Below, piece by piece: positions 6,600 through 57,538 of a DNA stretch of 64,000 nucleotides (within the stretch, counting starts at the first letter, position 1; each line of letters opens with the position of its first letter). Made by a program: the position numbers and the translations under genes. The notes under the pieces are model-generated. The model was not told the origin of the DNA. It saw nothing but the letters and a program-made list of their open reading frames with translations, and did no database searches. Source of the stretch: Bactericera cockerelli (Eukaryota; Arthropoda; Insecta; Hemiptera; Triozidae); NCBI GenBank assembly GCA_024516035.1, contig CM044958.1, forward strand, positions 21,501,568-21,565,567. Direction: 5' to 3'.

Positions 6600-7012
6600 A
6601 ATGAGATGATCGCAGGTTCGCCTCCTGATCAGAGGGTCGCGGGTTCAACTTCCGATCAGAGAGGATCGTAGGTTCAACTCTTGATCAGAGGGTCGCAGTC
6701 GATTCCTGATCAACGGGTCGCAATCAACTCCTGATCAACGAGTCACAATCGACTCCTGATCAACGAGTCGCAGGTTCAACTCCTGATCAACGAGTCGCAG
6801 GTTCAACTCCTGATCAACGAGTCACAATCGGCTCCTGATCAACGAGTCACAATCGACTCCTGATCAACGAGTCGCAGGTTCAACTCCTGATCAACGAGTC
6901 GCAGGTTCAACTCCTGATCAACGGGTCGCAATCGACTCCTGATCAACGAGTCGCAGGTTCAACTCCTGATCAACGGGTCGCAATCGACTCCTGATTAGAG
7001 GGTTAAGTGGCA
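6600..7012. repeat. Minisatellite array A: B-box-like repeats in the intron after AQR exon 11
   Basis: About 27-bp units (gatcaacgagtcgcaggttc and relatives) are repeated about 14 times. Many contain ggttcaactcc, a close match to the RNA polymerase III B box. The same sequence continues at 7572-7618 up to the exon 11 donor, so the array originally abutted the splice site and was separated by the SINE at 7066-7427 and AT-rich DNA. Confidence 0.8.
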
Positions 7013-7065
7013 GAGAATGCCTAAGGCATTAACTTCGCCCCGGATTACAATACATTGTACATTTA

Positions 7066-7427
7066 TATCTCCCTTGCCTTTATCCCATATTAGCTTATGT
7101 TGCTTTTGGGGTCGGCATTGTTCAATCTCATGGTTGAGGTTGGTAGGGTGGAGCATGTTTTTTTTTTATGGCTGGATGCCCTTCCTAACGCAAACGATTC
7201 TACTTGATTTAACGTCCTGGATTAGGACGGGGGTTTTACCATCCATTCGCTGGGAATCGTACCAGCTACCCACATTAACCTCACCCAGCCTGGGTAGGGC
7301 CGGAAATGGCAGCCTCACGTGTTTGGATGGAACAGAATTTTCTTCGAAAAGTCTGCCCCAGCCGGGAGTTGAACTCGGGAACTCTGGACTACGGGCAGTA
7401 GTCACAACCATTACGCCACGGAGGCTG
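7066..7427 (-). repeat. tRNA-headed SINE sharing the S5 core (family SV), full length with 18-bp target duplication
   Basis: It is flanked by an exact 18-bp direct repeat (caatacattgtacattta at 7048-7065 and 7428-7445). On the minus strand it has a tRNA-like head (gcctccgtggcgtaatggtt, B box gagttcaactcccgg). This is followed by a core nearly identical to that of the 5S-headed SINE (aggctgggtgaggttaatgt and atggtaaaacccccgtc). Confidence 0.85.
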
Positions 7428-7618
7428 CAATACATTGTACATTTAAATTTAAATATTTTTTTTTCTTCTATATCTGATTTTGTAAATACCTATTGTTAAT
7501 TTTTTTTTTTATCTTTGTTAATAATTTATTGTTGTATGTATTGTATAAAAAAATAAAGTGTAAATAAATAAGGGTCGCAGGTTCAACTCCTAATCAGCGG
7601 GCCGCGAGTTCGACTCAC

Positions 7619-7914
7619 CGTAGCGGCTGAAGTCCTTCTCCGTCTCGAGCGCCTCCTCGCCATGCCCCAGCCGCAGCAGATGTCTCTCGTCCACGTCGAG
7701 GCCCATGATCTTCTCGAACAGCTGGTTCAGGGCCTGGTTGGAGTGGGTCACTATGAGCGTGCGCTGGGCGGGGAAGTTGTGGTACAGGTTGGAGATGATC
7801 TGGACGGCCACGTCGGTCTTGCCCGTCCCCGGGGGCCCCACCACGAGCGTCAGGCCTGGCTGCATGCCCGCCCGTATGGCCTCCACCTGGGTCGGCGTGA
7901 AGGGGATGGTGTTC
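7619..7914 (-). CDS. AQR: AQR exon 11: Walker A exon
   Basis: Acceptor CAG at 7917-7915; donor GTGAGT from 7618 down. It starts with the last base of a Lys codon and ends with the first base of a Gly codon completed by exon 12. It encodes [20 protein letters not shown], then the ATP-binding Walker [10 protein letters not shown], motif Ia ([18 protein letters not shown]) and [20 protein letters not shown]. This is the Q-motif/Walker A part of the SF1 helicase domain and matches Aquarius almost residue for residue. All residues needed for nucleotide binding are present. Confidence 0.95.
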
Positions 7915-7926
7915 CTGTGGGGCGGG

Positions 7927-8220
7927 AGGGGAGCGGGGTGTGTGCTTTTTAAAATTGTTAGTGAAAAGAAGGTCCTGGGTTCGATCCCCCGTGCCGACAA
8001 AAATTTGTATTCTCAATTTGGTTACAATTGTTTGAAACGGATACCTTCCGGTGCGCTCGTGTTGACCCAGCACTTAAATGGGAAGTATTGTGTCACTTCT
8101 CGCCCATCACAGGGGAGGCATACTACGGGATGGGCAGGATACAACACAGACCACAAGCGTCTACAGTAGCTCCTGTTTCATGGCTACGAAATAAAAAAAA
8201 AGGCTGTGAAACACTCATCT
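7927..8220 (+). repeat. SINE-like repeat, family SX
   Basis: A B-box-like gggttcgatccccc at about 7978 is followed by a body (tcgcccatcacaggggaggc) that recurs at 57822-57935 and in reverse at 44425-44533. 8221-8455 is AT-rich with nothing recognised. Confidence 0.6.
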
Positions 8221-8457
8221 TTTAAAAAAAAAAGTAGGACGAAAGGTCGGGTGGAAGAGATTGACATAGGCGATAACCACCTTTTCGTTAAGACATTATT
8301 CAACAATTTCGATCAATCTTTATTTACAATTTTTTTATTATACAGGTGCAGTCAAAAGAGACACATTAATGAAAGATAAATAAAGTTTGATTAAGGGTGG
8401 TGATAATGCCTTTGGACATAATATATGTGTGTGTTGTATTTATTTGTATTCTAGGAA

Positions 8458-9940
8458 CTTACTTACTTGCGGGGCTCACTAGACAGGTAGGGGCCGCGGC
8501 TAGGAATCACGTGGGGCTCCACAGTGATGATTCCTAACCCATACTACCAGTACAAATTACTTGCGGGGCTCACTGGACAGGTAGGGGCCACGGCTAGGAA
8601 TCACGTGGGGCTCCACAGTGATGATTCCTAACCCATACTACCAGTACAACTTACTTGCGGGGCTCACTGGATAAGTAGGGACCGCGGCTAGGAATCACGT
8701 GGGGCTCCACAGTGATGATTCCTAACCCATACTGCCAGCGTCGATGGCATGTTGAATACACCGGTTCCCTTCAGAACACCGAAGTTAAGCGACATCCAGC
8801 GAGGTTAAGACTTGGATGGGTGACCATTCAAATTCTAATTCTCGTGACGCTGGCTTTTCCCGGCCCCACTCAGGCTGGGTGAGGTCAATGTGATAGCAGG
8901 TTTGTGAGTTTCCTGCGAATGGAGGGTAAAACCCCCGTCGTGATATGACCATGGCAGTTGAAAGCGACGTTAAACCCGCATTAAAAAAAAAAAAAATAAC
9001 CCATACTACCAGTACAACTTACTTGCGAGGCTCATGGACAGGTAGGGACCCCGGCTTAGGAATCACGTGGGCTCCACAGTGATGATTCCTAACCCATACT
9101 ACCAGTACAACTTACTTGCGGGGCTCACTGGACAGGTAGGGACCGCGGCTAGGAATCACGTGGGGCTCCACAGTGATGATTCCTACCCATACTACCAGTA
9201 CAACTTACTTGCGGGGCTCACTGGATAAGTAGGGACCGCGGCTAGGAATCACGTGGGCTCCAAAACTAACCCATACTACCAGTACAACTTACTCGGGCTC
9301 ACTGGACAGGTAGGGACCGGCTAGGAATCACGTGGGGCTCCACATGATGATTCCTAACCCATACTACCAGTACAACTTACTTGCGGGGCTCACTGGAAGT
9401 AGGGACCGCGGCTAGGAATCACGTGGGGCTCCACAGTGATGATTCCTACCCATACTACCAGTACAACTTACTTCGGGCTCACTGGACAGTAGGGACCCCG
9501 GCTAGGAATCACGTGGGGCTCCACAGTGATGATTTCCTAACCCATACTACCAGTACAACTTACTTGCGGGGCTCACTGGACAGGTAGGGGCCACGGCTAG
9601 GAATCACGTGGGGCTCCACAGTGATGATTCCTAACCCATACTACCAGTACAACTTACTTACGAGGCTCACTGGACAGGTAGGGACCCCGGCTAGGAATCA
9701 CGTGGGGCTCCACAGTGATGATTCCTAACCCATACTACCAGTACAACTTACTTGCGGGGCTCACTGGACAGGTAGGGGCCACGGCTAGGAATCACGTGGG
9801 GCTCCACAGTGATGATTCCTAACCCATACTACCAGTACAACTTACTTGCGGGGCTCACTGGACAGGTAAGGGTCCCCGGCTAGGAATCACGTGGGGCTCC
9901 ACAGTGATGATTCCTAACCCATACTACCAGTACAACTTAC
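8458..9940 (-). repeat. Minisatellite array B: copies of the 3' end of AQR exon 10 with its donor site
   Basis: About 14 units of about 92-94 bp, interrupted by a 5S SINE. On the minus strand each unit holds about 65 bases of exon 10 (encoding ITVEPHVIPSRGPYLSSEPR), the donor CGCAA|GTAAGT and about 27 bases of intron. The functional copy is the first on the minus strand (exon 10, 9941-10086), so the array lies wholly in the downstream intron. Some units carry one- to three-base deletions. Confidence 0.9.
8734..8996 (+). repeat. Full-length 5S-rRNA-headed SINE (S5) inserted in array B
   Basis: It is flanked by an 11-bp target duplication (taacccatact at 8723-8733 and 8997-9007). The first about 120 bases read as a 5S rRNA derivative: 5' end gccagcgtcgatggcatgtt, box-A area caccgaagttaagc, box C cttggatgggtgacc and the 3' stem gacgctggc. 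Then come the SINE core (aggctgggtgaggtcaatgt, gagggtaaaacccccgtcgt) and a poly-A tail. It is a retroposon, not a 5S gene. Confidence 0.92.
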
Positions 9941-10086
9941 TTGCGGGGCTCACTGGACAGGTAAGGTCCCCGGCTAGGAATCACGTGGGGCTCCACAGTG
10001 ATGATTCGCTTCCCCTCCGTTGTCTCAGTCTCCATCTGCTCCTCCTCTCCCTCTCTCTCCTCCTCCTCTGTCCGCTTTTTCAGCAC
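9941..10086 (-). CDS. AQR: AQR exon 10
   Basis: Acceptor CAG at 10089-10087 after ctaccccc. 146 nt in phase 0, ending with two bases of a Lys codon completed by exon 11. It encodes VLKKRTEEEE, an acidic stretch (EGEEEQMETETTEGK), then RIITVEPHVIPSRGPYLSSE. This joins the beta-rich region to the helicase core, as in Aquarius. The acidic linker lies where the family also has a charged low-complexity insert. Its donor is the first of about 15 equivalent donors in the adjoining array. Confidence 0.9.
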
Positions 10087-10099
10087 CTGGGGGTAGTTT

Positions 10100-11360: not shown

Positions 11361-11364
11361 TCAC

Positions 11365-11512
11365 CTCGTGGAATGTAAGCCGGAAGGGCCGCACTAGCTT
11401 GGTGGGGTCGTTGGTTTTGAGCTTGATGAGAGCTCCCGGGAAGCTAGCTCTCAGATGGTCCATGTTGAGGAATGTATCGTTGAAGTCCATGGTGGCGATC
11501 TCATTGGGCATC
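11365..11512 (-). CDS. AQR: AQR exon 9
   Basis: Acceptor TAG at 11515-11513; donor GTGAGT from 11364 down. The first base completes a Glu codon from exon 8, then 49 codons follow: MPNEIATMDFNDTFLNMDHL at the start and RPFRLTFHE at the end, in phase 0. The MPN.IAT.DFNDTFL block is a hallmark of Aquarius ahead of the helicase core. It sits 1.88 kb from exon 8, most of that being array C. Confidence 0.92.
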
Positions 11513-11999: not shown

Positions 12000-13392
12000 A
12001 CTATGCATTGGATTGGTCCTGTCAATTTTAGCTTGTAAAAACGAGTGGTGAAGTGCTGAGAAATCAATTCTTAGCACTACTCTGTGCTACCCAGCAGTTC
12101 ACGATGGGACGTATAAATGATGACCATTAGCTTTGTGTTCTGGGCCCTTCAGGATTATTAGTACCTGTAAAGCATTGTGTAATGCGGTATCTCCCCTGTA
12201 AGTATATATTAGCTACTCACTTTGTGTAATGGCGTGTTATACCCTTTCATGGTATTATTAGCTACTCATCTTCTGTGTAATTGGACGTGCCCCAGGTATT
12301 ATTAGTATCCAACTCTGTGTGTAATGGGCGGCCATATATCTCTCCTTAGGTGATATTATTAGCTACTCACTCTGTGTAATGGGCGGCCCCCGGTATTATT
12401 AGCTACTCACTCTGTGTAATGGGCGGCCCCAGGTATTATTAGCTACTCACTCTGTGTAATGGGCGGCCCCCAGGTATTATTAGCTACTCACTCTGTGTAA
12501 TGGGCGTATGCCCACACGCAGGTATTATTAGCTACTCCAACTTCACTGTGTAATGGGCGGCCCCCAGGTATTATTAGCTACTCACTCTGTGTAATGGGCG
12601 GCCCCTATGGGTATTATTAGCTACTCACTCTGTGTAATGGGCGGCCCCCGGTATTATTAGCTACTCACTCTGTGTAATGGGCGGCCCCCTTGGTATTTTA
12701 TTTATTGCTACTCACTCTGTGTAATGGGCGGCCCCCTGGTATTATTAGCTACTCACTCTGTGTAATGGGCGGCCCCGGTATTATTAGCTACTCACTCTGT
12801 GTAATGGGCGGCCCCATGGTATTATTAGCTACTCACTCTGTGTAATGGGCGGCCCCCTGGTATTATTAGCTACTCACTCTGTGTAATGGGCGGCCCCTGG
12901 TATTATTAGCTACTCACTCTGTGTAATGGGCGGCCCCCTGGTATTATTAGCTACTCACTCTGTGTAATGGGCGGCCCCGGTATTATTAGCTACTCACTCT
13001 GTGTAATGGGCGGCCCCCAGGTATTATTAGCTACTCACTCTGTGTAATGGGCGGCCCCCAGGTATTATTAGCTACTCACTCTGTGTAATGGGCGGCCCCT
13101 GGTATTATTAGCTACTCACTCTGTGTAATGGGCGGCCCCCGGTATTATTAGCTACTCACTCTGTGTAATGGGCGGCCCCCTGGTATTATTAGCTACTCAC
13201 TCTGTGTAATGGGCGGCCCCCTGGTATTATTAGCTACTCACTCTGTGTAATGGGTGGCTCCCCAGGTATTATTAGCTACTCACTCTTGTGTAATGGGCGG
13301 CCCCCTGGTATTATTACTACTCACTTTAAGCGGCACCTGGATTTAGCTATCACTTGTGATGGGTGGCCCCCCAGGTATTATTAGCTACTCAC
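12000..13392 (-). repeat. Minisatellite array C: copies of the 3' end of AQR exon 8 with its donor site
   Basis: About 30 units of 38-42 bp. On the minus strand each has the exon tail GCCGCCCATTACACAGA, the donor GTGAGT and about 14 intron bases (agctaataatacc). Units near exon 8 are regular; those at 12000-12360 are degenerate with many indels. The functional donor is at the exon 8 edge (13393/13392). Confidence 0.9.
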
Positions 13393-13562
13393 TCTGTGTA
13401 ATGGGCGGCCCCCGGGTCCCCGTAGCCCAGGATAATGTCATGCAGCCAGTCAGGCACCACACACTCCGTGTTCATCAGCTCCCGTATGGTCTCCAGCACA
13501 GCCTTGAAGTTGTTCTCCTTGGGCTTCCGCCGCATCAGCACGTTGAATGTCTCGTACACGTC
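13393..13562 (-). CDS. AQR: AQR exon 8
   Basis: Acceptor CAG at 13565-13563. 56 codons plus two bases: [56 protein letters not shown]. The [15 protein letters not shown] block is strongly conserved in Aquarius. It joins exon 7 (…GKE) in phase 0 and exon 9 through a split Glu codon. The last about 20 bases are the part amplified in array C. Confidence 0.95.
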
Positions 13563-13865: not shown

Positions 13866-13935
13866 GTCACATGAACCACCGACCAGGTTACAAGTCCACC
13901 GTCTTATTGATCAAGCAACTGAGGTCGATTACTCT
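13866..13935 (-). repeat. Truncated tRNA-Thr-like SINE (ST)
   Basis: Reverse complement of the ST head (aacctggtcggtggttc region), in the AQR intron between exons 7 and 8. Confidence 0.6.
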
Positions 13936-14203: not shown

Positions 14204-14421
14204 CTCCTTGCCGAGGGCCACATTGTCCAAGTCCTCCCTGTACTGGTTGCAGTCGAGCGTCATGCGGAAGGTGCGGGTGTCGCCCGGCAGGAGTGGGCGG
14301 GGCTCTGGGCCGTCCTCAATGATGCGCCCATTCCCGTCCAGCATGCCCTCTAGCTCGCACCCCCGCACGTACACCAGGCCCGTCTGCTCCAGGAAGGCGC
14401 CCTTGTAGCTGATCTTGGTGC
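14204..14421 (-). CDS. AQR: AQR exon 7
   Basis: Acceptor CAG at 14424-14422; donor GTACGA from 14203 down (weaker than its neighbours). The first two bases (GC) complete a codon begun in a missing upstream exon; G gives Gly, as expected. It encodes [40 protein letters not shown] and [19 protein letters not shown]. This is the part of the Aquarius beta region that ends the stretch missing from this window. No exon joining it upstream was found between here and 46964. Confidence 0.93.
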
Positions 14422-15945: not shown

Positions 15946-16162
15946 GTAATGTCTGTGCGCCACTACTGTCTGTATACTATCGATAAGGTTAAATTGAGGT
16001 TTCTTGTAAAAGCAATAGAAACAAGCCGGTTACCAAACTGGTTTCAAAAGGAACAACCACAGTGGAACATATGTCTGTAAACAATCATTACAACATGGTA
16101 CTCTAATGGTACGATAAAAGAATTACTGATGTACACATTGCAGACAATTATAGTTGTAAACC

Positions 16163-16220
16163 GACCTCAGTAGCTGGATCGACAAGGCGGCGGACTTTTA
16201 ACCTGGAGGTCGGTGGTTCA
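16163..16220 (+). repeat. Truncated tRNA-Thr-like SINE (ST)
   Basis: Head only: cgacctcagtagctggatcg through ggaggtcggtggttca. Confidence 0.6.
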
Positions 16221-16727
16221 TCTATAATCTTAATATATCTAATATATTCAGAGGAAAATCATAACTGGCGACCCTCGGTACACCGTACGGAAACCATAAA
16301 AACACTTTCTTACTTCAAAACGGCTTTCTATAGCAACATTATAAGATAAAGCAATTGTTACATTCCATGGCCAGGACTCTGGGTGGTACAGTCATCTCTT
16401 TAAATGAAATACTGTTCATTGAAAAAAATAAACATTACATACTATAATTTGGTCTCCTCAATCAAAGCCAAAAAGGTTGTTCTAAAAAATATCGATCACC
16501 TACGCATGGACGCATGTGGTCTGTATTTATTTTTCCATCTGATTTTTCCTGATAGTCTGATCTTTCTATCAAAGACCGGACTAACGAAAAAAAAATCCTT
16601 GAAAAACTATAGGACTAAGAACCTATTCATTAAGGAAAAGAAATGGTTAGATAAAAGTTGACATCAGGAAAATTGGAAGTTAACAACCAGGAACCTACTC
16701 CTGTGGTTGTACTGCTCTAAGTTTCCA

Positions 16728-16852
16728 GGTAAATACATAATTACTTGCTCAGGTAAATACATAATTACTTGCTCAGGTAAATACATAATTACCTTCTCAG
16801 GTAAATACATAATTACTTGCTCAGGTAAATACATAATTACCTATTCAAATAA
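16728..16852 (+). repeat. 24-bp tandem repeat, about 5 copies
   Basis: Unit caggtaaatacataattact plus tgct. Each unit contains CAG|GTAAAT, which resembles a donor site, but no exon sequence is linked to it. Confidence 0.85.
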
Positions 16853-16920
16853 AAAACAACTCACGTTGACGTTGTCAAAGCCAAACCCAACACATCATAG
16901 GGAATATCGTACGTAATAAT

Positions 16921-17104
16921 AAAAATAATAATATCGCCTTATTCATACTGCCCGATTAGGATTAATGAATCCCATTAATCCAGCAGTAAACCCAAGACGT
17001 ATTATTATGTGGTCGTAATAATTTGTCATGTCCCGGTTGGGTTTCGAGCTCGCAACCTCTGGATTACCAGCCAGACGCTTTGATAACTGACCTACCGGGA
17101 CAGG
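16921..17104 (-). repeat. tRNA-headed SINE, family SC
   Basis: Reverse of 958-1196: body at 16930-17000, B box (gaggttgcgagctcgaaacc on the minus strand) and A box near 17090. Confidence 0.75.
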
Positions 17105-17612
17105 CGTCTACTATCATAACCCTTCTGAAAGTTTTTCTTTTATATCCAGGTTTCTTAGTAGTTTTATACTACAAACTCTCTTTTATAAGTATAGATTGCC
17201 CTTATTAGATTTGATATTATTTTTACAATTATTTATTTATTTATAAAGAGGTTATTTCCCCTTAAAGAGAGGTGAATTTGACCAGGAAATCGATTTCTCA
17301 TATCCAGTTCTCTTTCATATCCAGGTTTGACTGTATTATAACTAAAAATTGTGTTTTTCCGAACCTCAGAACGCAACTTGGAGTTAAATGAATATAAATT
17401 AACATAGTTTGTTTAAAAAAATAGTTCAATAAATCTGCATAGAGCAAATTTTGTTACCAGATTCTGTGAGTGATGTGAACTTTCATGTGGATAACCCCCA
17501 TCGAGAAGACATTTCGAAGTTGAAAAGTTTTGGAGCCGCACACCACGCTACCATGTGACAGATTGAGGAAACAAACTTTCGACACACCTCACAGCACATT
17601 TCTTCCTCCACA

Positions 17613-17829
17613 ATGACGACCGTGTGGTTCCTCTGCTTCCTCGTCTCTGTGTGCGGCCGAGGCTTGGCCTCGCATATACCGCCGCCGCCCGGGCCCATGC
17701 CGCATGCGGCCGCGGTGAAGGTGCACAAGTGCTGCGGCCGCAACGAGATCATGCTGGACAGGAGGTGTGTGGCCGTGACGCCCAACTCCACCATAGAGAT
17801 GTGGTCACCCATATTCACCAACGAGATAG
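17613..17829 (+). CDS. mthl5: Mth-like GPCR exon 1: signal peptide and N-terminal ectodomain
   Basis: ATG at 17613 opens a hydrophobic signal peptide (MTTVWFLCFLVSVCGRGLAS). Pro-rich residues follow, then KVHKCCGRNEIMLDRRCVAV with three Cys, and a possible N-glycosylation site NST. 72 codons plus one base; donor GTAAGC at 17830. The last about 26 bases (tcacccatattcaccaacg…) are the part amplified in the adjoining array. An in-frame read-through past the donor would stop after 18 residues. Confidence 0.88.
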
Positions 17830-19096
17830 GTAAGCGAAGATTTGTTAGGAAGGGCGTTTGTCACCCATATTCACCAACGAGATAGGTAAGCGAAGATTTG
17901 TTAGGAAGGGCGTTTGTCACCCATATTCACCAACGAGATAGGTAAGCGAAGATTTGTTAGGAAGGGCGTTTGTCACCCATATTCACCAACGAGATAGGTA
18001 AGCGAAGATTTGTTAGGAAGGGCGTTTGTCACCCATATTCACCAACGAGATAGGTAAGCGAAGATTTGTTAGGAAGGGCGTTTGTCACCCATATTCACCA
18101 ACGAGATAGGTAAGCGAAGATTTGTTAGGAAGGGCGTTTGTCACCCATATTCACCAACGAGATAGGTAAGCGAAGATTTGTTAGGAAGGGCGTTTGTCAC
18201 CCATATTCACCAACGAGATAGGTAAGCGAAGATTTGTTAGGAAGGGCGTTTGTCACCCATATTCACCAACGAGATAGGTAAGCGAAGCTTTGTTAGGAAG
18301 GGCGTTTGTCACCCATATTCACCAACGAGATAGGTAAGCCAAGCTTTGTTAAGAAGGGCGTTTGTCACCCATATTCACCAACGAGATAGGTAAGCGAAGA
18401 TTTGTTAGGAAGGGCGTTTGTCACCCATATTCACCAACGAGATAGGTAAGCGAAGATTTGTTAGGAAGGGCGTTTGTCACCCATATTCACCAACGAGATA
18501 GGTAAGCGAAGATTTGTTAGGAAGGGCGTTTGTCACCCATATTCACCAACGAGATAGGTAAGCGAAGATTTGTTAGGAAGGGCGTTTGTCACCCATATTC
18601 ACCAACGAGATAGGTAAGCGAAGATTTGTTAGGAAGGGCGTTTGTCACCCATATTCACCAACGAGATAGGTAAGCGAAGATTTGTTAGGAAGGGCGTTTG
18701 TCACCCATATTCACCAACGAGATAGGTAAGCGAAGATTTGTTAGGAAGGGCGTTTGTCACCCATATTCACCAACGAGATAGGTAAGCGAAGATTTGTTAG
18801 GAAGGGCGTTTGTCACCCATATTCACCAACGAGATAGGTAAGCGATGCTTTGTTAGGAAGGGCGTTTGTCACCCATATTCACCAACGAGATAGGTAAGCC
18901 AAGCTTTGTTAAGAAGGGCGTTTGTCACCCATATTCACCAACGAGATAGGTAAGCCAAGCTTTGTTAGGAAGGGAGTTTGGCACCCATGTTCACCAACGA
19001 GATAGGTAAGCGAAGCTTTGTTAGGAAGGGCGTTTGTCACCCATATTCACCAACGAGATAGGTAAGCGAAGCTTTGTTAGGAAGGGCGTTTGTCAT
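17830..19096 (+). repeat. Minisatellite array D: copies of the 3' end of GPCR exon 1 with its donor site
   Basis: About 23 units of 56 bp. Each contains about 26 bases of exon 1 (cacccatattcaccaacgag), the donor ATAG|GTAAGC and about 26 intron bases (gaagatttgttaggaagggc). Units are nearly identical (only a few substitutions), so amplification is recent or homogenised. The functional donor is the first copy. Confidence 0.95.
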
Positions 19097-19545
19097 TCCC
19101 CCCGCATTTCACATCAATTCCCCCAATTCCAAAATGTGTAGTCAGAAGGGTACAAAATCCCCCTTTTCCATTCCCCCCATAGAATAAAAAGGAAGTTGTC
19201 GATTCCTCCGATTAAGTTTTGTATAGTAAAGTTAGGAAAATAAATAGATGGCTATGCCTCGACTGTTAAAAAATGTATGTAAGGCAAATGCATGTAAGTA
19301 AAAGGACTCTTTAGTATCATGATTGCACGGCAGACACAGTCTTGTTTCTAAATTCCGCTTCTAATCAGTATCAGTATAAACAGAAAACTGAGAAGTTGTA
19401 CTAGATGTACATGAATATCAGAACATACCTGGACAGCTGTTTTGAGCTTATCATCAGCAGGTAATAGTTCTGAATATCCATGTCATCAACTAACCTCTCT
19501 ATTTTAATCATTCTCGTCAAACTCTACTACCCCCGTCCCCCGCAG

Positions 19546-19772
19546 GTTTCAAACCCGTCAAGGTCCCCTACGAGCTGGTGATGGGTCTGCCGGACTGCAA
19601 GGCCAAGCAGCAGTGGCCCATCTACCACTACCCGGGGTCCTCCGACAAGCTCATCATCCTACCGGACGGCCAGCTCCGCCACTACATCTTCAAGACGGGA
19701 AACGAACCCAGTCTGCCGCACAGCGACGAGACGTACTACGACTTCCCTCAGGGCCACTACTGTCTGGACAAG
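19546..19772 (+). CDS. mthl5: Mth-like GPCR exon 2: ectodomain
   Basis: Acceptor ccgcag at 19540-19545; two bases complete a Gly codon. 75 codons follow: FKPVKVPYELVMGLPDCKAK, WPIYHYPGSSDKLIILPDGQ and DETYYDFPQGHYCLDK. Donor GTAACG at 19773, phase 0. The LPDG.L…C pattern is typical of Mth ectodomains. Confidence 0.9.
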
Positions 19773-20213
19773 GTAACGTGTCGTGGATAAGGAAACACAT
19801 CTGCCTTTTGACCCGAGATTATGCTGGGTTCAAATCCTGGCCGGGGTGGATTTTTGCGGGGGAAAATTTCAACAACTTCCCATTTCGCTTCGGAGTTCTG
19901 CTGAATATATTCAATGACTTCTAAACGATCCTGATTCAATCACTGACTGTGGGAGAGAGAAAAAAACCGATCGGTTTTTACTACGACTTCCCTCAGGGCC
20001 ACTACTGTCTGGACAAGGTAACGTGGTGGATCAGGAAACACATCTGCCTTTTGACCCGAGATTGTGGGTTCAAATCCTGGCCGGGGTGAATTTTTTGAGG
20101 GAAAATTTCAACAACTTCCCATTTCGCTTCGGAGTTCTGCTGAATATATTCAATGACTTCTAAACGATCCTGATTCAATCACTGACTGTGGGAGAGAGAA
20201 AAAACCGATCAAT
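19734..20213 (+). repeat. Two-copy tandem duplication of the 3' end of GPCR exon 2 with donor
   Basis: 19734-19978 and 19979-20213 are head-to-tail copies of about 245 bp. Both contain tactacgacttccctcaggg…gacaag followed by GTAACG (donors at 19773 and 20018) and about 200 bases of intron, including a tRNA-like motif. Near identity indicates a young event. Confidence 0.92.
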
Positions 20214-20219
20214 TCCATG

Positions 20220-45917: not shown

Positions 45918-45962
<45 letters not shown>

Positions 45963-46012: not shown

Positions 46013-46579
46013 GGCACACACCTAAAACCAACCGCCACTATTGTTTTCAGTATCAACAATGCATTTAGTATTACTTACCAAATTTGTCAGACAAAAAGAT
46101 AAAAATCTAGTTATTAACTCAATATCTAGTTATTAATTTATAGGTATACACCAGTTATTGCTGATATATCATTCCAAAGCAAATATACATGAATTACTGA
46201 GAATAAAATAAAACAAAACCAATTGCTGTACCCTTAACAGGGTCGACGTTAGGAAGGTCATCAAGCCGTAAAATGTAGAATAGGAGTGGCAAAACTGACC
46301 ATGAGGAAGAGGTTGATTCATGCCGGCAGCAAGAAAGTTTGGGAAAAGACAAAGTGAAAGAAAAAGAAGAAGGTCATCATATTTGTGCCAATTCGAGCTT
46401 CAGAACCATTGCAAAAACATTCTCGCTTTGAGTTGATAGTTCGTCACGACATATTTCGAGAAAAATATGTCATTCAGGTCAAAAAACGTAAATACTTTTT
46501 GTTGTCCATTTTATGTCCTTACTCGACGTAGCTCAAGAAAGGCTCATCAGAATTTCGCGATTGATATCTCAAATGAAAA

Positions 46580-46656
46580 CTTGAACCCTTGCTTAAATTT
46601 TTCTCAAAAAGAGAAAAAAAAAAAAAATTGAGAAAAAATTTAAGCAAGGGTTCAAG
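46580..46656. repeat. 27-bp inverted repeat hairpin
   Basis: cttgaacccttgcttaaatt… (46580-46606) pairs with its complement at 46629-46656 (one extra A) around an A-rich loop. It is flanked by imperfect direct repeats of about 100 bp. Confidence 0.75.
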
Positions 46657-46963
46657 TGGATACGGCGCCGTCACGACAAATTTTGAGAAAAAAAATGTCA
46701 TTTCGGTCGAAAAATTTGATTTTTTTGTGTCACCCATCCATTTTTTTGTCTTTACCCCATGTAGCTGAACCCTAGAGATATATTCCCTGATCCAAATGGA
46801 CCTATAGGTAAAATTTCAATTTTCTCGGACAATCTGTGTGGATTTGACAACTTTATTATTTAGTCATTTCTTATTGGTCTTAGAATTGGGAATTATTTTG
46901 GGGCCCGTGCCCCCCAGCTCCTCAATAATTGAAAGACCTCTACCCACACCATGCAAGACTCAC

Positions 46964-47142
46964 CTGTGTGAAGAGCCGCCCCTCCGGCCGTCTGGTGAGG
47001 GGGGCCAGCTGACAGCGCACCACCAGATGGCAGTCGTCCAGGATGGTGTTGAAGAAGCGGCGCGTGGAGAGCAGCGCCTCCAGGTCTATGAGGAACTCTA
47101 TGAAGCGCTCGCAGTAGCGGAGTGTGTGGTGCGGGATATCCC
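46964..47142 (-). CDS. AQR: AQR exon 6
   Basis: Acceptor CAG at 47145-47143, the last of about 43 copies of the same acceptor; donor GTGAGT from 46963 down. It starts with two bases of a split Gly and encodes [40 protein letters not shown] and [19 protein letters not shown]. This matches the Aquarius helical region (YCERFIE…DLEALL.TRR.FNTILDD). It ends in phase 0. The exon that should follow was not found. Confidence 0.95.
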
Positions 47143-50060
47143 CTGGTGGGAACAAAGATAGGCATGCGTCAATAATAATAATAGTACTGAGAGTAGTGTG
47201 TAGTGCGGAATATCCCCTGGTGGAAACAAAGATACGCATGCGTCAATAATAATAATAGTACTAGTACTGTGAGTAGTGTGTGGTGCGGGATATCCCCTGG
47301 TGAGAACAAAGATACGCATGCGTCAATAATAATAATAGTACTGAGAGTAGTGTGTGGTGCGGGATATCCCCTGGTGGGAACAAAGAGAAGTCAATAATAA
47401 TAGTACTGAGAGTAGTGTGTGGTGCGGGATATCCCCTGGTGGGAACAAAAGAAGTCAATAATAATAGTACTGAGAGTAGTGTGTGGTGCGGGATATCCCC
47501 TGGTGGGAACAAAGAGAAGTCAATAATAATAGTACTGAGAGTAGTGTGTGGTGCGGGATATCCCCTGGTGGGAACAAAGAGAAGTCAATAATAGTAGTAC
47601 TGAGAGTAGTGTGTGGTGCGGGATATCCCCTGGTGGGAACAAAGAGAAGTCAATAATAATAGTACTGAGAGTAGTGTGTGGTGCGGGATATCCCCTGGTG
47701 GGAACAAAGATACGCATGCGTCAATAATAATAATAGTACTAAGAGTAGTGTGTGGTGCGGGATATCCCCTGGTGGGAACAAAGAGAAGTCAATAATAATA
47801 GTACTGAGAGTAGTGTGTGGTGCGGGATATCCCCTGGTGGGAACAAAGATACGCATGCGTCAATAATAATAATAGTACTAAGAGTAGTGTGTGGTGCGGG
47901 ATATCCCCTGGTGGGAACAAAGAGAAGTCAATAATACGAGTACTGAGAGTAGTGTGTGGTGCGGGATATCCCCTGGTGGGAACAAAGATACGCATGCGTC
48001 AATAATAATAATAGTACTGAGAGTAGTGTGTGGTGCGGGATATCCCCTGGTGGGAACAAAGAGAAGTCAATAATAATAGTACTGAGAGTAGTGTGTGGTG
48101 CGGGATATCCCCTGGTGGGAACAAAGATACGCATGCGTCAATAATAATAATAGTACTGAGAGTAGTGTGTGGTGCGGGATATCCCCTGGTGGGAACAAAG
48201 AGAAGTCAATAATAATAGTACTGAGAGTAGTGTGTGGTGCGGGATATCCCCTGGTGGGAACAAAGAGAAGTCAATAATAATAGTACTGAGAGTAGTGTGT
48301 GGTGCGGGATATCCCCTGGTGGGAACAAAGAGAAGTCAATAATAATAGTACTGAGAGTAGTGTGTGGTGCGGGATATCCCCTGGTGGGAACAAAGAGAAG
48401 TCAATAATAATAGTACTGAGAGTAGTGTGTGGTGCGGGATATCCCCTGGTGGGAACAAAGAGAAGTCAATAATAATAGTACTGAGAGTAGTGTGTGGTGC
48501 GGGATATCCCCTGGTGGGAACAAAGAGAAGTCAATAATAATAGTACTGAGAGTAGTGTGTGGTGCGGGATATCCCCTGGTGGGAACAAAGAGAAGTCAAT
48601 AATAATAGTACTGAGAGTAGTGTGTGGTGCGGGATATCCCCTGGTGGGAACAAAGATACGCATGCGTCAATAATAATAATAGTACTAAGAGTAGTGTGTG
48701 GTGCGGGATATCCCCTGGTGGGAACAAAGAGATGTCAATAATACGAGTACTGAGAGTAGTGTGTGGTGCGGGATATCCCCTGGTGGGAACAAAGATACGC
48801 ATGCGTCAATAATAATAATAGTACTGAGAGTAGTGTGTGGTGCGGGATATCCCCTGGTGGGAACAAAGAGAAGTCAATAATAATAGTACTGAGAGTAGTG
48901 TGTGGTGCGGGATATCCCCTGGTGGCAACAAAGATACGCATGCGTCAATAATAATAATAGTACTGAGAGTAGTGTGTGGTGCGGGATATCCCCTGGTGGG
49001 AACAAAGAGAAGTCAATAATAATAGTACTGAGAGTAGTGTGTGGTGCGGGATATCCCCTGGTGGGAACAAAGAGAAGTCAATAATAATAATAGTACTGTG
49101 AGTAGTGTGTGGTGCGGGATATCCCCTGGTGGGAACAAAGAGAAGTCAATAATAATAATAGTACTGTGAGTAGTGTGTGGTGCGGGATATCCCCTGGTGG
49201 GAACAAAGAGAAGTCAATAATAATAGTACTGAGAGTAGTGTGTGGTGCGGGATATCCCCTGGTGGGAACAAAGAGAAGTCAATAATAATAGTACTGAGAG
49301 TATTGTGTGGTGCGGGATATCCCCTGGTGGGAACAAAGAAAAGTCAATAATAATAGTACTGAGAGTAGTGTGTGGTGCGGGATATCCCCTGGTGGGAACA
49401 AAGAGAAGTCAATAATAATAGTACTGAGAGTAGTGTGTGGTGCGGGATATCCCCTGGTGGGAACAAAGAGAAGTCAATAATAATAGTACTGAGAGTAGTG
49501 TGTGGTGCGGGATATCCCCTGGTGGGAACAAAGAGAAGTCAATAATACGAGTACTGAGAGTAGTGTGTGGTGCGGGATATCCCCTGGTGGGAACAAAGAT
49601 ACGCATGCGTCAATAATAATAATAGTACTGAGAGTAGTGTGTGGTGCGGGATATCTCCTGGTGGGAACAAAGATACGCATGCGTCAATAATAATAATAAT
49701 AGTACTGAGAGTATTGTGTGGTGCGGGATATCCCCTGGTGGGAACAAAGAGAAGTCAATAATAATAGTACTGAGAGTAGTGTGTGGTGCGGGATATCCCC
49801 TGGTGGGAACAAAGATACGCATGCGTCAATAATAATAATAGTACTGAGAGTAGTGTGTGGTGAGGGATATCCCCTGGTGGGAACAAAGATACGCATGCGT
49901 CAATAATAATAATAGTACTGAGAGTAGTGTGTGGTGCGGGATATCCCCTGGTGGGAACAAAGAGAAGTCAATAATAATAATAGTACTGAGAGTAGTGTGT
50001 GGTGCGGGATATCTCCTGGTGGGAACAAAGATACGCATGCGTCAATATTAACAGTACTGA
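47143..50060 (-). repeat. Minisatellite array F: copies of the AQR exon 6 acceptor and exon start
   Basis: About 43 units of 64-77 bp. On the minus strand each has an intron part with tgactt or the longer gacgcatgcgtatc variant, the polypyrimidine/acceptor ttgttcccaccag, and 22 bases of exon (gggatatcccgcaccacaca). Two unit lengths alternate irregularly. The functional acceptor is the last copy on the minus strand. The units are nearly identical. Confidence 0.95.
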
Positions 50061-50111
50061 GAGTACATCCATCCCAGTTAGGGGTATATCTGGCTGGGGG
50101 ACATAGAACAG

Positions 50112-50213
50112 GGAGTAGAATTTTCTTCAAAAAGTCTGTCCCCAACCAGGGATCGAACTCGGGATATCTGCACTAGGGGCAGTAGTTTCAACCGTCACGC
50201 CACGGCGGCTGGC
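50112..50213 (-). repeat. SV-family SINE head (partial)
   Basis: B-box complement agggatcgaactcgggata and head complement cgtcacgccacggcggctgg, as at 7066-7427, without the core. It lies between arrays F and G. Confidence 0.7.
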
Positions 50214-50349
50214 ATCTCCTGATGGTTGATCGCATAAATAAATATGTGGTTCAGAATGAGTCAACTTTCCCACTTCAGTTGGCTACAGACCATCACTCTC
50301 CTCAGATGAAACCAAGCTGGATAGCAACAACATCTAATTACGCTAACCC

Positions 50350-52614
50350 ATCTGCGGGATACTCTCCAACACACCCAGGAACTTGAGCATGATCCTGTGC
50401 AGATACTTCCGCTCACACTCCAGCTTCTACTTCTTACACTTACCTTCCTGCGGGATACTCTCCAACACACCCAGGAACTTGAGCATGATCCTGTGCAGAT
50501 ACTTCCGCTCCCACTCCAGCTTCTACTTCTTACACTTACCTTCCTGCGGGATACTCTCCAACACACCCAGGAACTTGAGCATGATCCTGTGCAGATACTT
50601 CCACTCCAGCTTCTACTTCTTACACTTACCTTCCTGCGGGATACTCTCCAACACACCCAGGAACTTGAGCATGATCCTGTGCAGATACTTCCACTCCAGC
50701 TTCTACTTCTTACACTTACCTTCCTGCGGGATACTCTCCAACACACCCAGGAACTTGAGCATGATCCTGTGCAGATACTCCCACTCCAGCTTCTACTTCT
50801 TACACTTACCTTCCTGCGGGATACTCTCCAACACACCCAGGAACTTGAGCATGATCCTGTGCAGATACTTCCACTCCAGCTTCTACTTCTTACACTTACC
50901 TTCCTGCGGGATACTCTCCAACACACCCAGGAACTTGAGCATGATCCTGTGCAGATACTTCCGCTCACACTCCAGCTTCTACTTCTTACACTTACCTTCC
51001 TGCGGGATACTCTCCAACACACCCAGGAACTTGAGCATAATCCTGTGCAGATACTTCCACTCACACTCCAGCTTCTACTTCTTACACTTACCTTCCTGCG
51101 GGATACTCTCCAACACACCCAGGAACTTGAGCATGATCCTGTGCAGATACTTCCACTCCAGCTTCTACTTCTTACACTTACCTTCCTGCGGGATACTCTC
51201 CAACACACCCAGGAACTTGAGCATAATCCTGTGCAGATACTTCCGCTCCCACTCCAGCTTCTACTTCTTACACTTACCTTCCTGCGGGATACTCTCCAAC
51301 ACACCCAGGAACTTGAGCATGATCCTGTGCAGATACTTCCACTCACACTCCAGCTTCTACTTCTTACACTTACCTTCCTGCGGGATACTCTCCAACACAC
51401 CCAGGAACTTGAGCATAATCCTGTGCAGATACTTCCACTCACACTCCAGCTTCTACTTCTTACACTTACCTTCCTGCGGGATACTCTCCAACACACCCAG
51501 GAACTTGAGCATGATCCTGTGCAGATACTTCCGCTCCCACTCCAGCTTCTACTTCTTACACTTACCTTCCTGCGGGATACTCTCCAACACACCCAGGAAC
51601 TTGAGCATGATCCTGTGCAGATACTTCCACTCACACTCCAGCTTCTACTTCTTACACTTACCTTCCTGCGGGATACTCTCCAACACACCCAGGAACTTGA
51701 GCATAATCCTGTGCAGATACTTCCACTCACACTCCAGCTTCTACTTCTTACACTTACCTTCCTGCGGGATACTCTCCAACACACCCAGGAACTTGAGCAT
51801 GATCCTGTGCAGATACTTCCGCTCCCACTCCAGCTTCTACTTCTTACACTTACCTTCCTGCGGGATACTCTCCAACACACCCAGGAACTTGAGCATAATC
51901 CTGTGCAGATACTTCCACTCACACTCCAGCTTCTACTTCTTACACTTACCTTCCTGCGGGATACTCTCCAACACACCCAGGAACTTGAGCATGATCCTGT
52001 GCAGATACTTCCGCTCCCACTCCAGCTTCTACTTCTTACACTTACCTTCCTGCGGGATACTCTCCAACAACCCAGGAACTTGAGCATAATCCTGTGCAGA
52101 TACTTCCGCTCCCACTCCAGCTTCTACTTCTTACACTTACCTTCCTGCGGGATACTCTCCAACACACCCAGGAACTTGAGCATAATCCTGTGCAGATACT
52201 TCCGCTCACACTCCAGCTTCTACTTCTTACACTTACCTTCCTGCGGGATACTCTCCAACACACCCAGGAACTTGAGCATGATCCTGTGCAGATACTTCCA
52301 CTCCAGCTTCTACTTCTTACACTTACCTTCCTGCGGGATACTCTCCAACACACCCAGGAACTTGAGCATGATCCTGTGCAGATACTTCCGCTCCCACTCC
52401 AGCTTCTACTTCTTACACTTACCTTCCTGCGGGATACTCTCCAACACACCCAGGAACTTGAGCATGATCCTGTGCAGATACTTCCGCTCCCACTCCAGCT
52501 TCTACTTCTTACACTTACCTTCCTGCGGGATACTCTCCAACACACCCAGGAACTTGAGCATGATCCTGTGCAGATACTTCCGCTCCCACTCCAGCTTCTA
52601 CTTCTTACACTTAC
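50350..52614 (-). repeat. Minisatellite array G: copies of the 3' end of AQR exon 5 with its donor site
   Basis: About 24 units of 90 or 96 bp. On the minus strand each contains about 70 bases of exon 5 (encoding LEWERKYLHRIMLKFLGVLE or a shorter form, then SIPQE), the donor GGAAG|GTAAGT and about 12 intron bases. Both unit lengths are multiples of three, so long false reading frames run through the array on both strands. The first copy on the minus strand is the true exon end. Confidence 0.95.
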
Positions 52615-52783
52615 CTTCCTGCGGGATACTCTCCAACACACCCAGGAACTTAAGCATAATCCTGTGCAGATACTTCCGCTCCCACTCCAGCTTCTCCTTC
52701 TGCTCCGGCAAATCCTTCTTCATGATCATCTTCCAGTACTTGCGCCACTTGGGCACACTCTTCAGTTCCTGCTCGCGACGGCC
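52615..52783 (-). CDS. AQR: AQR exon 5
   Basis: Acceptor CAG at 52786-52784; donor GTAAGT from 52614 down. 56 codons plus one base: GRREQELKSVPKWRKYWKMI, MKKDLPEQKEKLEWERKYLH and RIMLKFLGVLESIPQE, then G of a Gly codon completed by exon 6. It corresponds to the Aquarius stretch with KxxKxRKFW…LI.KFI.VL.S.P. Phase 0 at the start joins exon 4. Confidence 0.92.
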
Positions 52784-52828
52784 CTGCGAGGAGAATTGAG
52801 AACGAGGTAAGTAAAAGTTTAGCCAGCG

Positions 52829-53430: not shown

Positions 53431-53439
53431 ATACTTTTT

Positions 53440-56430
53440 AATTTTTAATTTTAATTTTAAATTAATTAACGGGAACTACCCATTTTTCACAATTTCCCTA
53501 TCTTATTCTAATATAAAATAAAACTTAGGTCTAGTAAAATAAAACAGTTTCTAAAACTAAGGTTAAAAAAAAAAAAAAAAAAGGAAACCTAAAGGTTGGC
53601 TCTACGCATCGGTCTCACGGATGGAAACAAGGTCCTGAAGTTTGATTTTTAGTGATGTAGGAGTCTCATGAAGAACATTTATATTGTAAGGAGGATTTGC
53701 TAAGATGTTGCATAATGTCATGCATCTATTTAATGGACTATTCTGTGCGATATTAGTCTTACTAGTCATGGTGGTGAAAATATTTTTATTGCGCGTATTT
53801 TTTAAGTTTGTACGATAAGTAATTTGAGACTGAATATCAGCACAATTTATTTCGTTTTTGATGGTTTTTATGAGAAACATGACATCAGCAACATCTCTCC
53901 TGTGTTGTAAGGTTTGTAAATTAAAAGTTTTCATGAGCTCCTGAAAATTAACATGTTTTGATGTATGATGTACTTTGAAGCTCAACAATCTCAAAAACTT
54001 TCTCTGGACTTTCTCAAGTTCATCTATATGAACCTGATATCTGGGGGACCAGAGAGTTGAACAATATTCCAGAGAAGATCGAACCAGTGAACAATAGAGG
54101 GTCTTCAGAGTTGCAGGGTTTTTGAACTCCCTGGTATTCCTAAAGAGAAATCCCAGGTTTCTAAACGCTCTACCGCTCACCTGCTCATAATGATTGTTGA
54201 ACTTCAAATCATGATTCATAATAACACCCAGATCTTTAACTTGATTAACTCTATTTAGTTCTTGGTCATGGATGGAATAATTAAATACAAGAGGTTGGTG
54301 TTTACGATGGTAAGTAATGGTTAAACATTTATCGACATTCAGAACCATCCTATTATCCCCACACCACGAGACCAACGCGTTAAGAGCCGATTGCAGCGCC
54401 ATATAGTCGGCAGGACCATTCACCACTGAGGATATGCGAAAATCGTCCGCGAACAGCCAACTAGACACGTTTTGCACAGATTGTAAGATATCATTAATGT
54501 AAATATTAAAAAGACAACCCGAGAGGTGCCCACCTTGTGGACAGCCTGAGTTAACTTCAAAGGGGTGGGACATGACATTACTATATCTAACAATCTGTGT
54601 TCGATTAGAAAGGTAGCTGAAGAACCAGGAAAGAAGAGGATCGGAAATGCCTATTGCTTGTAGTTTAGAGCATAGAATGTTGGTATTTACTTTATCAAAT
54701 CCGGCGGAAAAATCTGTATACACGGCGTCTACTTGAAGGTTTTGTTCAACAGAATGAGTTAGGTGCTGATAGAATGATATAAGATTAGAATTTGTAGATT
54801 TGTTCTTCATAAACCCGTGTTGATTATCAATTATGATGTCTTGAAGTACCTTCCTGATTTCATGGTATACCAACATTTCTAATAGTTTAGGGATCGAAGA
54901 TATTTTAGCAATAGGTCGATAGTTTCTAATCTGATTCCTCTTACCTTTCTTATAAATTGGAGTCACGTACGATGTTCTCCACTCAGTAGGGAAAGTCCCA
55001 GTACTAAGGCTAAGATTAAAAATGTTGGTGAGCGGACCCGCCAGCTCTGCCGCACATTCTCTCAATATGATTGACGGAATATTGTCAGGCCCACACGATG
55101 TAATTAAGGGTAGTTTGGACATTTTTTGGTAAACATAATTTTTATTCAGGCTTATTTCAGTTAATGGGGGATCTAAACATCGATCATAAATTATCTGATT
55201 AGGTACAATGTGTTCTTTACTGTAGACACTGGAGAAGTGCATTGCGAATAAATTAGCACTTTCCTGGGAATTATTAGCCTGTTTATCATCATAGCACATT
55301 GCATCAGGAAGATCTAAATTTTGTTTTTTACTATTTATAAATTTATAAACTTTTCTTGGGTCCTTTTTTATCTGCTTTTCCGCTGATATTACATATTGTT
55401 GATATGATGAGTGAGATAATGATTTACATTCACGGCGGATTTGTACAAACTAAGAATAAATTAATGGCGAGTTTGTAATCTTGAAATTTTTATGAAGAAT
55501 CTTCTTTAAAAGTACTTTGTCCTTTAATTCCTGAGAGAACCAAATGGGGAATTTAAAATTGTCAACGGTAGTAGTTTTAGGAACGAATTGGTTTAGGCCA
55601 ATTTTTAATGTATCGTAAAAAATCCTCAGTTGATTCTCTAAAGAAGGACCGTCGTTAAGAAGAAGATTTTCAAGATTTACACAAGTGAGATATTCTCGCA
55701 ATGAATTAAAGTCTGTTTTACGAAAAGAAAATATTTGTCTTTTATTGCTTGGTAATGAAGTCTTATGATTCGCCTTAATATTGACTGAAATTAATAGTGG
55801 AGGGTGATGGCTATCCACAGGTAACAATACATCGTGCGGGTTACTGACAACCACCGAATTACAGTTAAGAAAAACAAGGTCAAGAATTTTACTAGAGGAG
55901 TTACGAATAAAATTATACTGATTCAGGCCATAATACAAAGCACTGTTTATCAAAATGTTAGAAGATTGAGATGAACATTCATGAGTGAGATGATTAGAAT
56001 TTTCCACTAAGGTCCAGTTAAGAGAAGGTTGATTGAAATCTCCTGTAAGTAATATGATACTGTCTAAGTTTGATGAAAGAGCACTGTCAAGAAGGTCGAC
56101 ATATGTCTGATATAGTTCAGGTCTGGAACTGGGTGGTATATATACTGTGTTAAGTAATAGAGATGTTTTGTTTATCTGAACTTTAATAAACACAGTTTCG
56201 ATTTTATCATTAAAAATATTAATAAGTTGGCAAGGATACTTTTTCTTTATTGCTATCAAAACCCCACCTCCTTCCTTATTGGGAGTTATAGTTTCACGAT
56301 CACATCTGAAAATATGAAAATCATCGAGACCAAGTTCTGCATCATGGATGCAGCCCTTAAGCCAAGATTCAGTAAATACAATGGCATCGTAATCAACTAG
56401 CGGGACAGCACATACTTGTGTCAATTGTTA
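53440..56430 (-). mobile_element. Non-LTR retrotransposon (jockey/CR1-like) LINE 2, slightly 5'-truncated, one in-frame stop
   Basis: On the minus strand an open frame from 56424 to 53602 is broken only by a TAG at 55452-55450; both parts are in the same frame. The first part (324 aa) is an APE-type endonuclease lacking its first about 40 residues: FTESWL, GGGVLIAIKK, LLTGDFNQPSLNW and DSHHPPLLISV with catalytic-type residues. The second (565 aa from the first Met after the stop) is the reverse transcriptase: motif A YTDFSAGFD, SGCPQGGHLSG and FADD. The 3' end carries AT-rich repeats at 53430-53470. It sits in AQR intron 4 in the same orientation as AQR and is a distant relative of LINE 1. 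Confidence 0.9.
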
Positions 56431-56454
56431 ACACGAAGTGATATCACAGGTACT

Positions 56455-56545
56455 CAAACAAACAATAAATCTTTGCTGAACTTGGGACTCGAACCGCTGA
56501 CCTCTGGTTACGAGTTTACCGCCTTATCGATCCAGCTACTGGGTG
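56455..56545 (-). repeat. Truncated tRNA-Thr-like SINE (ST)
   Basis: ggactcgaaccgctgacctc and head complement ccgccttatcgatccagcta. Confidence 0.65.
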
Positions 56546-57009
56546 ACGTTAAACAGGGAGAACAGTTGGATAGAGACCATCAATTCCTCATTTGTAGCCA
56601 AGCTGGCTACAATTATAACACCAGCTACTCAGGTCGGTTATGATTGATTTAAATAAAAAACCATGAAAGAAATGTTTTGGAATTCCGTTGGAAATATTAA
56701 ATTCCGTTTTATAGAGTATTTGTGACGTCACTTTTGTGATTCCGGACTTTCCAAGTGCGTCCAATCATATTCTGCATTTTTCCATTGAGAAGATGGAATG
56801 TAGATAATCCAAACATGAATGATAATTCTCTTTGGACGCCCAGAAGCGTCCCAGAATGGGAGGAGCCCAGAATTTTCTGGTCTCCCCCCATATGATGTGT
56901 GTGGGGTATTCTGTAGTGTTGTTTACGTATACAAAAACTCACGAGTAAAAATATTTCTAAAAATTCATACTTAAGACTTAGCGCGTTAACCACTTGATAC
57001 TACCACGTA

Positions 57010-57334
57010 TTCTTTGGGAGGATAACTTGTCATATCTCGGTGGGGTTTTGAAACCACGACCTCCGGAATCTCTGGATTCACAGAGTACCACCTTTACCAC
57101 TGAGCTACCGGGACAGACTAACACTCACCTGTTGCACCGACGTCTACGATTAAGACGACTAAAGTCCCATTATTCCAGCAGTAAGCCCAAGACATATTAT
57201 TATGTGGTAATAATTCCAAATGGGAAGATAACTTGTCATGTCCCTGTTGGGTTTCGAACCCACGACCTCTGGAATCTCTGGATTCACAGAGTGCCGCCTT
57301 TACCACTGAGCTACCGGGACAGACTAACACTCAC
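57010..57334 (-). repeat. Two SC SINEs and a two-copy duplication of the AQR exon 4 donor
   Basis: 57010-57118 and 57150-57322 are minus-strand SC SINEs. Between them, 57119-57148 (gactaacactcacctgttgc) repeats the sequence at 57323-57351 that holds the true exon 4 donor; the second donor-like site is at 57128-57127. The period is 206 bp, so SINE plus exon end were duplicated together. Confidence 0.85.
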
Positions 57335-57538
57335 CTGTTGCAGCGACGTCCACATTGACAGAGACACCAAATGTTTGATGGAGTCTCGAATGAGTTTCTC
57401 CTCCATGCTGTTGAAGCAGTGGTTGAGAAAAACGACAAGAGCTGTATGTTCCGACATCATTACACCGGAGGTTTTCAGGGAGGTCTGCAGAACATGGTTG
57501 AAGAGGCCGGGGAAGTGGTCCGGATGCTTCCTGAATAT
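57335..57538 (-). CDS. AQR: AQR exon 4
   Basis: Acceptor CAG at 57541-57539; donor GTGAGT from 57334 down. Exactly 68 codons, phase 0 at both ends: IFRKHPDHFPGLFNHVLQTS, LKTSGVMMSEHTALVVFLNH, CFNSMEEKLIRDSIKHLVSL, SMWTSLQQ. It matches the Aquarius helical domain (KPDHF…LFLDHCFNSLE…QLVSLPMW). Confidence 0.95.

Follow-up and report, generated by a model that had tools for sequence, protein, structure and literature searches.

The window analyzed here is a stretch of 64,000 nucleotides of the psyllid Bactericera cockerelli (contig CM044958.1, positions 21,501,568 to 21,565,567) that harbors two genes, AQR on the minus strand and a Methuselah-like-5 (Mth-like-5) receptor on the plus strand. AQR is an intron-binding helicase, and its last exon matched the solved human AQR chain 4pj3_A over 482 residues with an E value of 2.4e-245. 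A second copy of this helicase exon (X9) was not found in the genome, the four other matches being relatives of 33 to 39% identity. The receptor showed 85% identity to Mth-like 5 of Diaphorina citri and 82% to that of Cacopsylla melanoneura; among the 94 receptor matches listed, one protein and one short partial match stood at 64% and the others, psyllids aside, at 34 to 54%. The joined receptor exons gave no Pfam match at an E value of 0.001. Using protein matches, splice words, and phase, we mapped 24 splice junctions in the window (12 donors and 12 acceptors). Three features were kept outside this junction count: the X1 acceptor, a short exon of the receptor near 30.6 kb, and a 24-bp donor-like array at 16726, which possibly marks the end of a 5'UTR exon. 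The exons and the arrays associated with them are collected in Table 1.

Table 1. Exons of AQR (X) and of the receptor (E) and tandem arrays at or near their junctions, in window coordinates
Feature	Position	Strand	Details
AQR exon X1	57335..57548	-	donor at 57335, reads ...SMWTSLQQ/GTGAGT; acceptor end by eye
AQR exon X2	52615..52783	-
AQR exon X3	46964..47142	-	acceptor at 47142
AQR exon X4	14204..14421	-	without junction-crossing copies
AQR exon X5	13393..13562	-
AQR exon X6	11365..11512	-	without junction-crossing copies
AQR exon X7	9941..10086	-
AQR exon X8	7619..7914	-
AQR exon X9	4494..6096	-	helicase C-terminal part, open frame
Receptor coding exon E1	17614..17829	+
Receptor exon E2	19546..19772	+
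X1 donor two-copy duplication	57015..57356	-	with tRNA-like SINE (by eye); unit ~206 bp; 1 extra copy of donor 57335
X2 donor array	50352..52701	-	24-25 copies, mostly 96 bp: exon tail + GTAAGT + intron; 23 extra copies of donor 52615
X3 acceptor array	47121..50065	-	43 copies including the functional one, mainly 65 or 74 bp: pyrimidine tract + CAG + exon start; 42 extra copies of acceptor 47142
X5 donor array	12188..13417	-	27-28 copies of ~41 bp; 26 extra copies of donor 13393
X7 donor array	8461..10014	-	13-14 copies of ~94 bp, split by 5S-rRNA-like element at 8734-8855; 13 extra copies of donor 9941
E1 donor array	17804..19095	+	23 copies of 56 bp; 22 extra copies of donor 17829
E2 donor two-copy duplication	19734..20210	+	with SINE (by eye); unit ~240 bp, ~6 filler bases between copies; 1 extra copy of donor 19772
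27-bp array	6603..7003	.	akin to intron sequence just inside X8 donor
24-bp array	16723..16842	+	5 CAG/GTAAAT donor-like units; left out of counts

A BLAST search of the mapped junctions against the window revealed junction-crossing, same-strand tandem copies within 6 kb at 7 of the 24 junctions, affecting 6 of the 12 donors and 1 of the 12 acceptors, with 2 to 43 copies at each. These are the same seven arrays, in two genes on opposite strands, that an earlier note had picked out from the sequence of the window, and TRF also recovers the arrays named there, except for the pair at 57119, which was found by self-BLAST. The functional copy lies at the exon-side edge in all seven, as had been claimed. 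Between X2 and X3, the intron (47143-52614, 5,472 bp) is about 95% array (donor array, 2,263 bp; acceptor array, 2,923 bp). Within the 6 kb to which the count in the window extends, the junction-crossing matches are local, and the other matches, among the first three listed per junction, do not span another junction on both sides. The 27-bp array had been put forward as an eighth case; it is indeed related to the intron sequence of the X8 donor (7619), but the three matches listed, of seven, start at intron base +3 and exon sequence is not shared.

Other repeated elements occur in the window. An Rfam search returned one tRNA-like and two 5S-like matches, the latter (RF00001) located at 8734-8855 (+, 65 bits) and 2303-2424 (-, 57.8 bits) and possibly representing 5S-derived SINEs, and an ARAGORN search for tRNA genes found none. 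Long frames resembling the reverse transcriptase and endonuclease of non-LTR retrotransposons, named by eye, are present at 36297-38528 (+) and 53602-56427 (-).

The splice words are retained in nearly all copies, with GTAAGT in 24 of 24 at the X2 donor, GTGAGT in 26 of 28 at the X5 donor, GTAAGT in 12 of 13 at the X7 donor, GTAAGC in 23 of 23 at the E1 donor, and CAG in 43 of 43 at the X3 acceptor. Indels in or beside the exon-derived stretch are found in 5 of 12 copies of the X7 array, 2 of 22 for X5, 1 of 24 for X2, and none of the 22 and 42 copies for E1 and X3, respectively. The exon-edge copies retain the reading frame. A second, inverted copy of window positions 16130-20443 (L015) lies about 26 kb beyond the right edge of the window and matches in three pieces at 98.5%, 96.2%, and 90.4% identity; it shares 99.1% identity with the window in exon E1 and 98.7% in exon E2, and the exon-1 protein is identical. 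The E1 donor array has 23 units in the window versus 4 in L015, the 24-bp donor-like array 5 versus 2, and the E2 duplication 2 versus 2; the difference in units is one between two placements, L015 being either an allele or a paralog. In the CCT gene L031, a donor is duplicated and its intronic copy carries an in-frame stop, and this duplication was not found in 2,301 bp of the paralog L038 (98.9% identity at the exon end). As judged from these sequence comparisons, the arrays are unstable in copy number. The earlier suggestion that such duplications are tolerated as neutral changes is supported by the intact exon-proximal copy seen in L031 and L038, in the distribution of copy indels, and in the L015 placement.

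Local tandem-duplication events were called by self-BLAST with one fixed rule and compared with a null model in which units were placed at random only where exons remain undamaged. In the window, 7 of 16 events cross a junction versus 0.6 expected, and none of 200,000 simulations reached 7. Because the window was selected for its junction feature, the independent evidence comes from a held-out gene set and from a genome-wide count. The CCT/HSP60 family was picked as the held-out set before its sequence was seen, as conserved and intron-rich, and the event rule was fixed once four of the CCT stretches had been looked at. A PF00118 search of the genome gave 68 exon matches, 53 of which lie inside the 11 analyzed stretches (68,210 bp); the HSP60 locus and a C1 paralog lie outside this set. 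Four stretches (L029-L032) are loci fitting 10 kb, and L033-L039 were picked for dense exons, which disfavors array-bearing introns. L037 and L038 represent a paralog of L031 and hence are not independent. Exon pairs were called in 21 of 32 cases in the first batch, where four had a profile gap over 12 and seven lacked a compatible splice pair, and in 9 of 10 in the second; the CCT splice sites are predictions, and some of those called score weakly and may be wrong.

Crossing copies were present at 7 of the 60 called CCT junctions (5 donors and 2 acceptors), with 7 of 42 in the first batch and 0 of 18 in the second. Over all held-out stretches, 7 of 23 events cross junctions versus 2.55 expected (2.7-fold, P = 0.0063), and the first batch alone gave 7 of 19 versus 1.6 (P = 0.0003). 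Five settings of length, identity, and masking concur for the window and for the held-out genes, with P values from 0.004 to 0.010 for all held-out stretches. Two events that touch or adjoin junctions (L029:7497-7653 and L031:6856-6980) were nevertheless scored as non-junction. Junction arrays are present in unrelated genes on other chromosomes, and the excess over the null model is seen in both the window and the held-out genes. When window and held-out genes are pooled, 11 of 42 donors and 3 of 42 acceptors have copies (Fisher P = 0.038), with P values of 0.069 for the window alone and 0.42 for the held-out genes alone; the donor bias is weak.

The assembly behind the genome-wide searches comprises 565,017,811 bases in 1,032 contigs; 13 chromosomes have been reported for three published psyllids of 588-660 Mb (PMC12203342). 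A pattern requiring three copies of the donor motif MAGGTRAGT separated by 18-48 bases, which addresses donors only, gave 5,480 overlapping matches (2,698 + 2,782) versus 327 (143 + 184) for the same pattern backwards, a 17-fold excess in matches, not in arrays. The matches listed, all in the first 5.2 Mb of C1, belong to five arrays, two of which give most of them. All arrays in the window and in the other analyzed stretches escape this strict pattern, and the match total is no array total. As single words outside arrays, the donor word and the reversed word occur 8 and 7 times in 110,633 bp, and other control words are rarer (2, 3, and 0). Together with the enrichment in the held-out genes, this excess, at the level of matches, supports the proposed species-wide tendency over a local accident.

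A unit-by-unit donor-motif test was performed on 42 usable units from 20 stretches of 10 kb, 8 flanking the window and 12 at round coordinates. Six of the 42 units ranked in the top 5% for the donor motif against shuffles and seven against local controls, where about 2 are expected, a weak excess, and the distributions of the 42 units did not differ from shuffles or local controls (KS P = 0.56 and 0.18). Among ten donor-strong or chosen arrays inspected in the 20 stretches, only the L010 array follows a long exon-like open frame. Located at L010 2698-3910 (C4, ~16-17 kb left of the window), it has about 30 copies of a ~34-bp unit with GAG/GTGAGA directly after the open frame and is likely a further mirage in the sense given below, although it stands outside all counts; the exon reading gave no Pfam match. 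At L014 3412-6218, 18-bp tandem repeats are nested within higher-order repeats of 437-494 bp.

The same structures have been described in amphioxus, in the globin genes BflGb6 and BflGb9 and in Adh3, and were termed mirages (PMC3087553). RT-PCR suggests undisturbed splicing of these genes, haplotypes differ in length, the Adh3 mirage shows somatic instability, and mirages were proposed as a route to new introns (PMC3087553); PGBD5 has been added to the amphioxus mirages, with a mention of troponin C (PMC3902484). The psyllid arrays are mirage-like in that tandem units span the exon-intron boundary (7 of 24 window and 7 of 60 called CCT junctions), in that both boundaries are affected (11 donors and 3 acceptors over both sets), and in that length differs between copies (the E1 donor array in the window and L015; L031 and L038). 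They are unlike amphioxus mirages in their host, an insect rather than a cephalochordate, and in reaching 43 copies and nearly filling one intron from both ends. Whereas normal splicing is supported by RT-PCR in amphioxus, here it is predicted from the intact exon-edge copies and frames. No report of mirage-type arrays outside amphioxus or lancelets was found in the open-licence papers searched. The spider "mirage" was rejected as a parallel, since the term there names a transposon class (PMC9912274).

Tandem genomic duplication of AGGT segments has also been described as a source of new introns (PMC3443670, citing Rogers 1989, Gao and Lynch 2009, and Hellsten 2011). It shares with the psyllid arrays the local duplication of sequence with splice signals, but in that process the duplication falls within an exon and gives rise to a new intron, whereas in the psyllid existing introns grow, and neither a new exon nor a new intron was noticed in the sequence analyzed. 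Human tandem arrays reportedly gave rise to alternatively spliced introns (by the title of Zhuo et al. 2007), and the likeness, by title only, is that of tandem arrays tied to splice sites. Introners are repeated sequences with splice sites that are inserted as introns dispersed over many genes; the psyllid units, in contrast, carry exon of their own gene. The arrays are a known kind of structure, that of the amphioxus mirages, here common in an insect.

We consider it highly probable that these are mirage-type minisatellites, in which local duplication of junctions is followed by amplification through unequal exchange and the copies are tolerated, and that they are common across the psyllid genome. 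A short segment straddling a splice junction (~15-80 exon bases and ~16-200 intron bases) would undergo tandem duplication, with microhomology or the repair of a staggered break as the probable route. The array would then expand or contract by unequal exchange, the presumed source of the difference observed in copy number. The extra copies sit inside the intron and are apparently spliced away, and the exon-adjacent copy, to judge from the intact frames, would be the one used by the spliceosome. Exon definition is an established principle of splicing and probably determines this choice by pairing that copy with the other exon end. If the spliceosome takes the exon-adjacent copy, the mRNA remains unchanged and the arrays would be close to neutral. 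At some breakpoints short matches can be read: GTCA occurs where the unit begins in exon E1 and again immediately past the E1 array, and another, CATTG, is found at a CCT acceptor breakpoint. Such short matches would fit microhomology or staggered-break repair followed by unequal exchange; breakpoint microhomology does not tell mechanisms apart, and slippage at GT-rich donors and R-loop breakage, proposed earlier, are candidate causes. At L029 6043-6512, a 29-bp exon-donor fragment fused to tRNA-like sequence is repeated ~270 bp downstream of the real donor (6057). As these junction fragments sit within a SINE-like array at that distance from the junction, simple tandem duplication does not explain every case, and junction pieces can apparently also be copied at a distance.

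An alternative that we regard as possible, though clearly less probable, is that mutation itself is targeted to junctions, with 5' splice sites breaking in connection with transcription (through R-loops, a stalled polymerase, or GC-rich exon ends) and donors hit far beyond their share. The genome-wide surplus of tandem donor-motif matches and the excess of affected donors over acceptors argue for it, as does a GC content of 0.46-0.48 in junction events versus 0.34-0.37 in others. However, the donor bias is significant in the pooled data only, the genome-wide figure consists of donor matches of which a few large arrays give most of those listed, and the raised GC may merely mirror the included exon sequence. 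In an extended and similarly tentative form, a genome-wide transcription-linked process in psyllids would duplicate 5' splice sites far more than other DNA, render intron ends hypervariable, drive intron length, feed new exons and introns, and have arisen independently in psyllids and lancelets. It is unlikely that no special process operates, such that tandem duplications arise everywhere, exonic ones are purged, and junction-crossing ones persist at the background intron rate. Tandem duplications are frequent in the genome, as the 42 usable units in the sampled stretches indicate, and the held-out enrichment is moderate, but the excess persists in null models that already bar exon-damaging positions, and the genome-wide excess of tandem donors also argues against such a background.

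Assembly errors producing the arrays, or the whole arrangement, are very unlikely, although the locus gives some grounds for the suspicion. Between X3 and X4 (14421-46964), exactly where the opposite-strand receptor lies, the AQR probe used did not find the exons for ~260 residues, and the inverted copy of the receptor 5' region ~26 kb right of the window is ~1.2 kb from an N run. In L015, sequence matching window 16130 adjoins sequence matching 46404-46910, as inversion of the intervening segment would give; these matches (at 9136-9613 and at 5644-8848 of L015) point to either a scaffolding error or a heterozygous inversion spanning ~16.1-46.4 kb, and the AQR/receptor arrangement may be an assembly or haplotype effect. 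A wrong arrangement of two genes would nevertheless not account for the arrays, whose copies carry individual variants and which recur in unrelated genes on other chromosomes, with tandem donors found genome-wide. Insertion of tRNA-like SINEs beside donors, dragging junction copies along, was rejected as the source of the arrays and appears most improbable. On the intron side, 8 of the 24 window junctions have a B-box-like site no more than 250 bp away, versus 2.5 expected (P = 0.0025), and a SINE is seen by eye inside two window units (X1 and E2 donors), but this enrichment was not reproduced in the held-out genes (3 of 60 junctions, 4.7 expected), and the junctions with large arrays (X2, X5, X7, and E1 donors and X3 acceptor) have no such site in the 400 bp on their intron side. 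A selected function, with the spare splice sites serving as reservoir or decoy, is just as hard to credit. Splice words are retained in nearly all copies, which says little because the copies are so similar overall, and copy number differs widely between two near-identical placements.

Read as mirage-type minisatellites, these serial arrays, with up to ~28 near-identical donors or 43 acceptors, represent a natural experiment in splice-site choice, since one copy has to be selected by the cell, and gene annotators should be warned that inner copies resemble exons. If the counts hold, with five arrays found by the strict pattern in the listed first 5.2 Mb of C1, there may by extrapolation be hundreds of such arrays genome-wide. 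If they are so common, psyllid genomes would offer cases for studying how minisatellites originate and why junctions are prone to duplication, and would raise the questions of whether intron gain by tandem duplication proceeds at a measurable rate and of why lancelets and psyllids share this trait.
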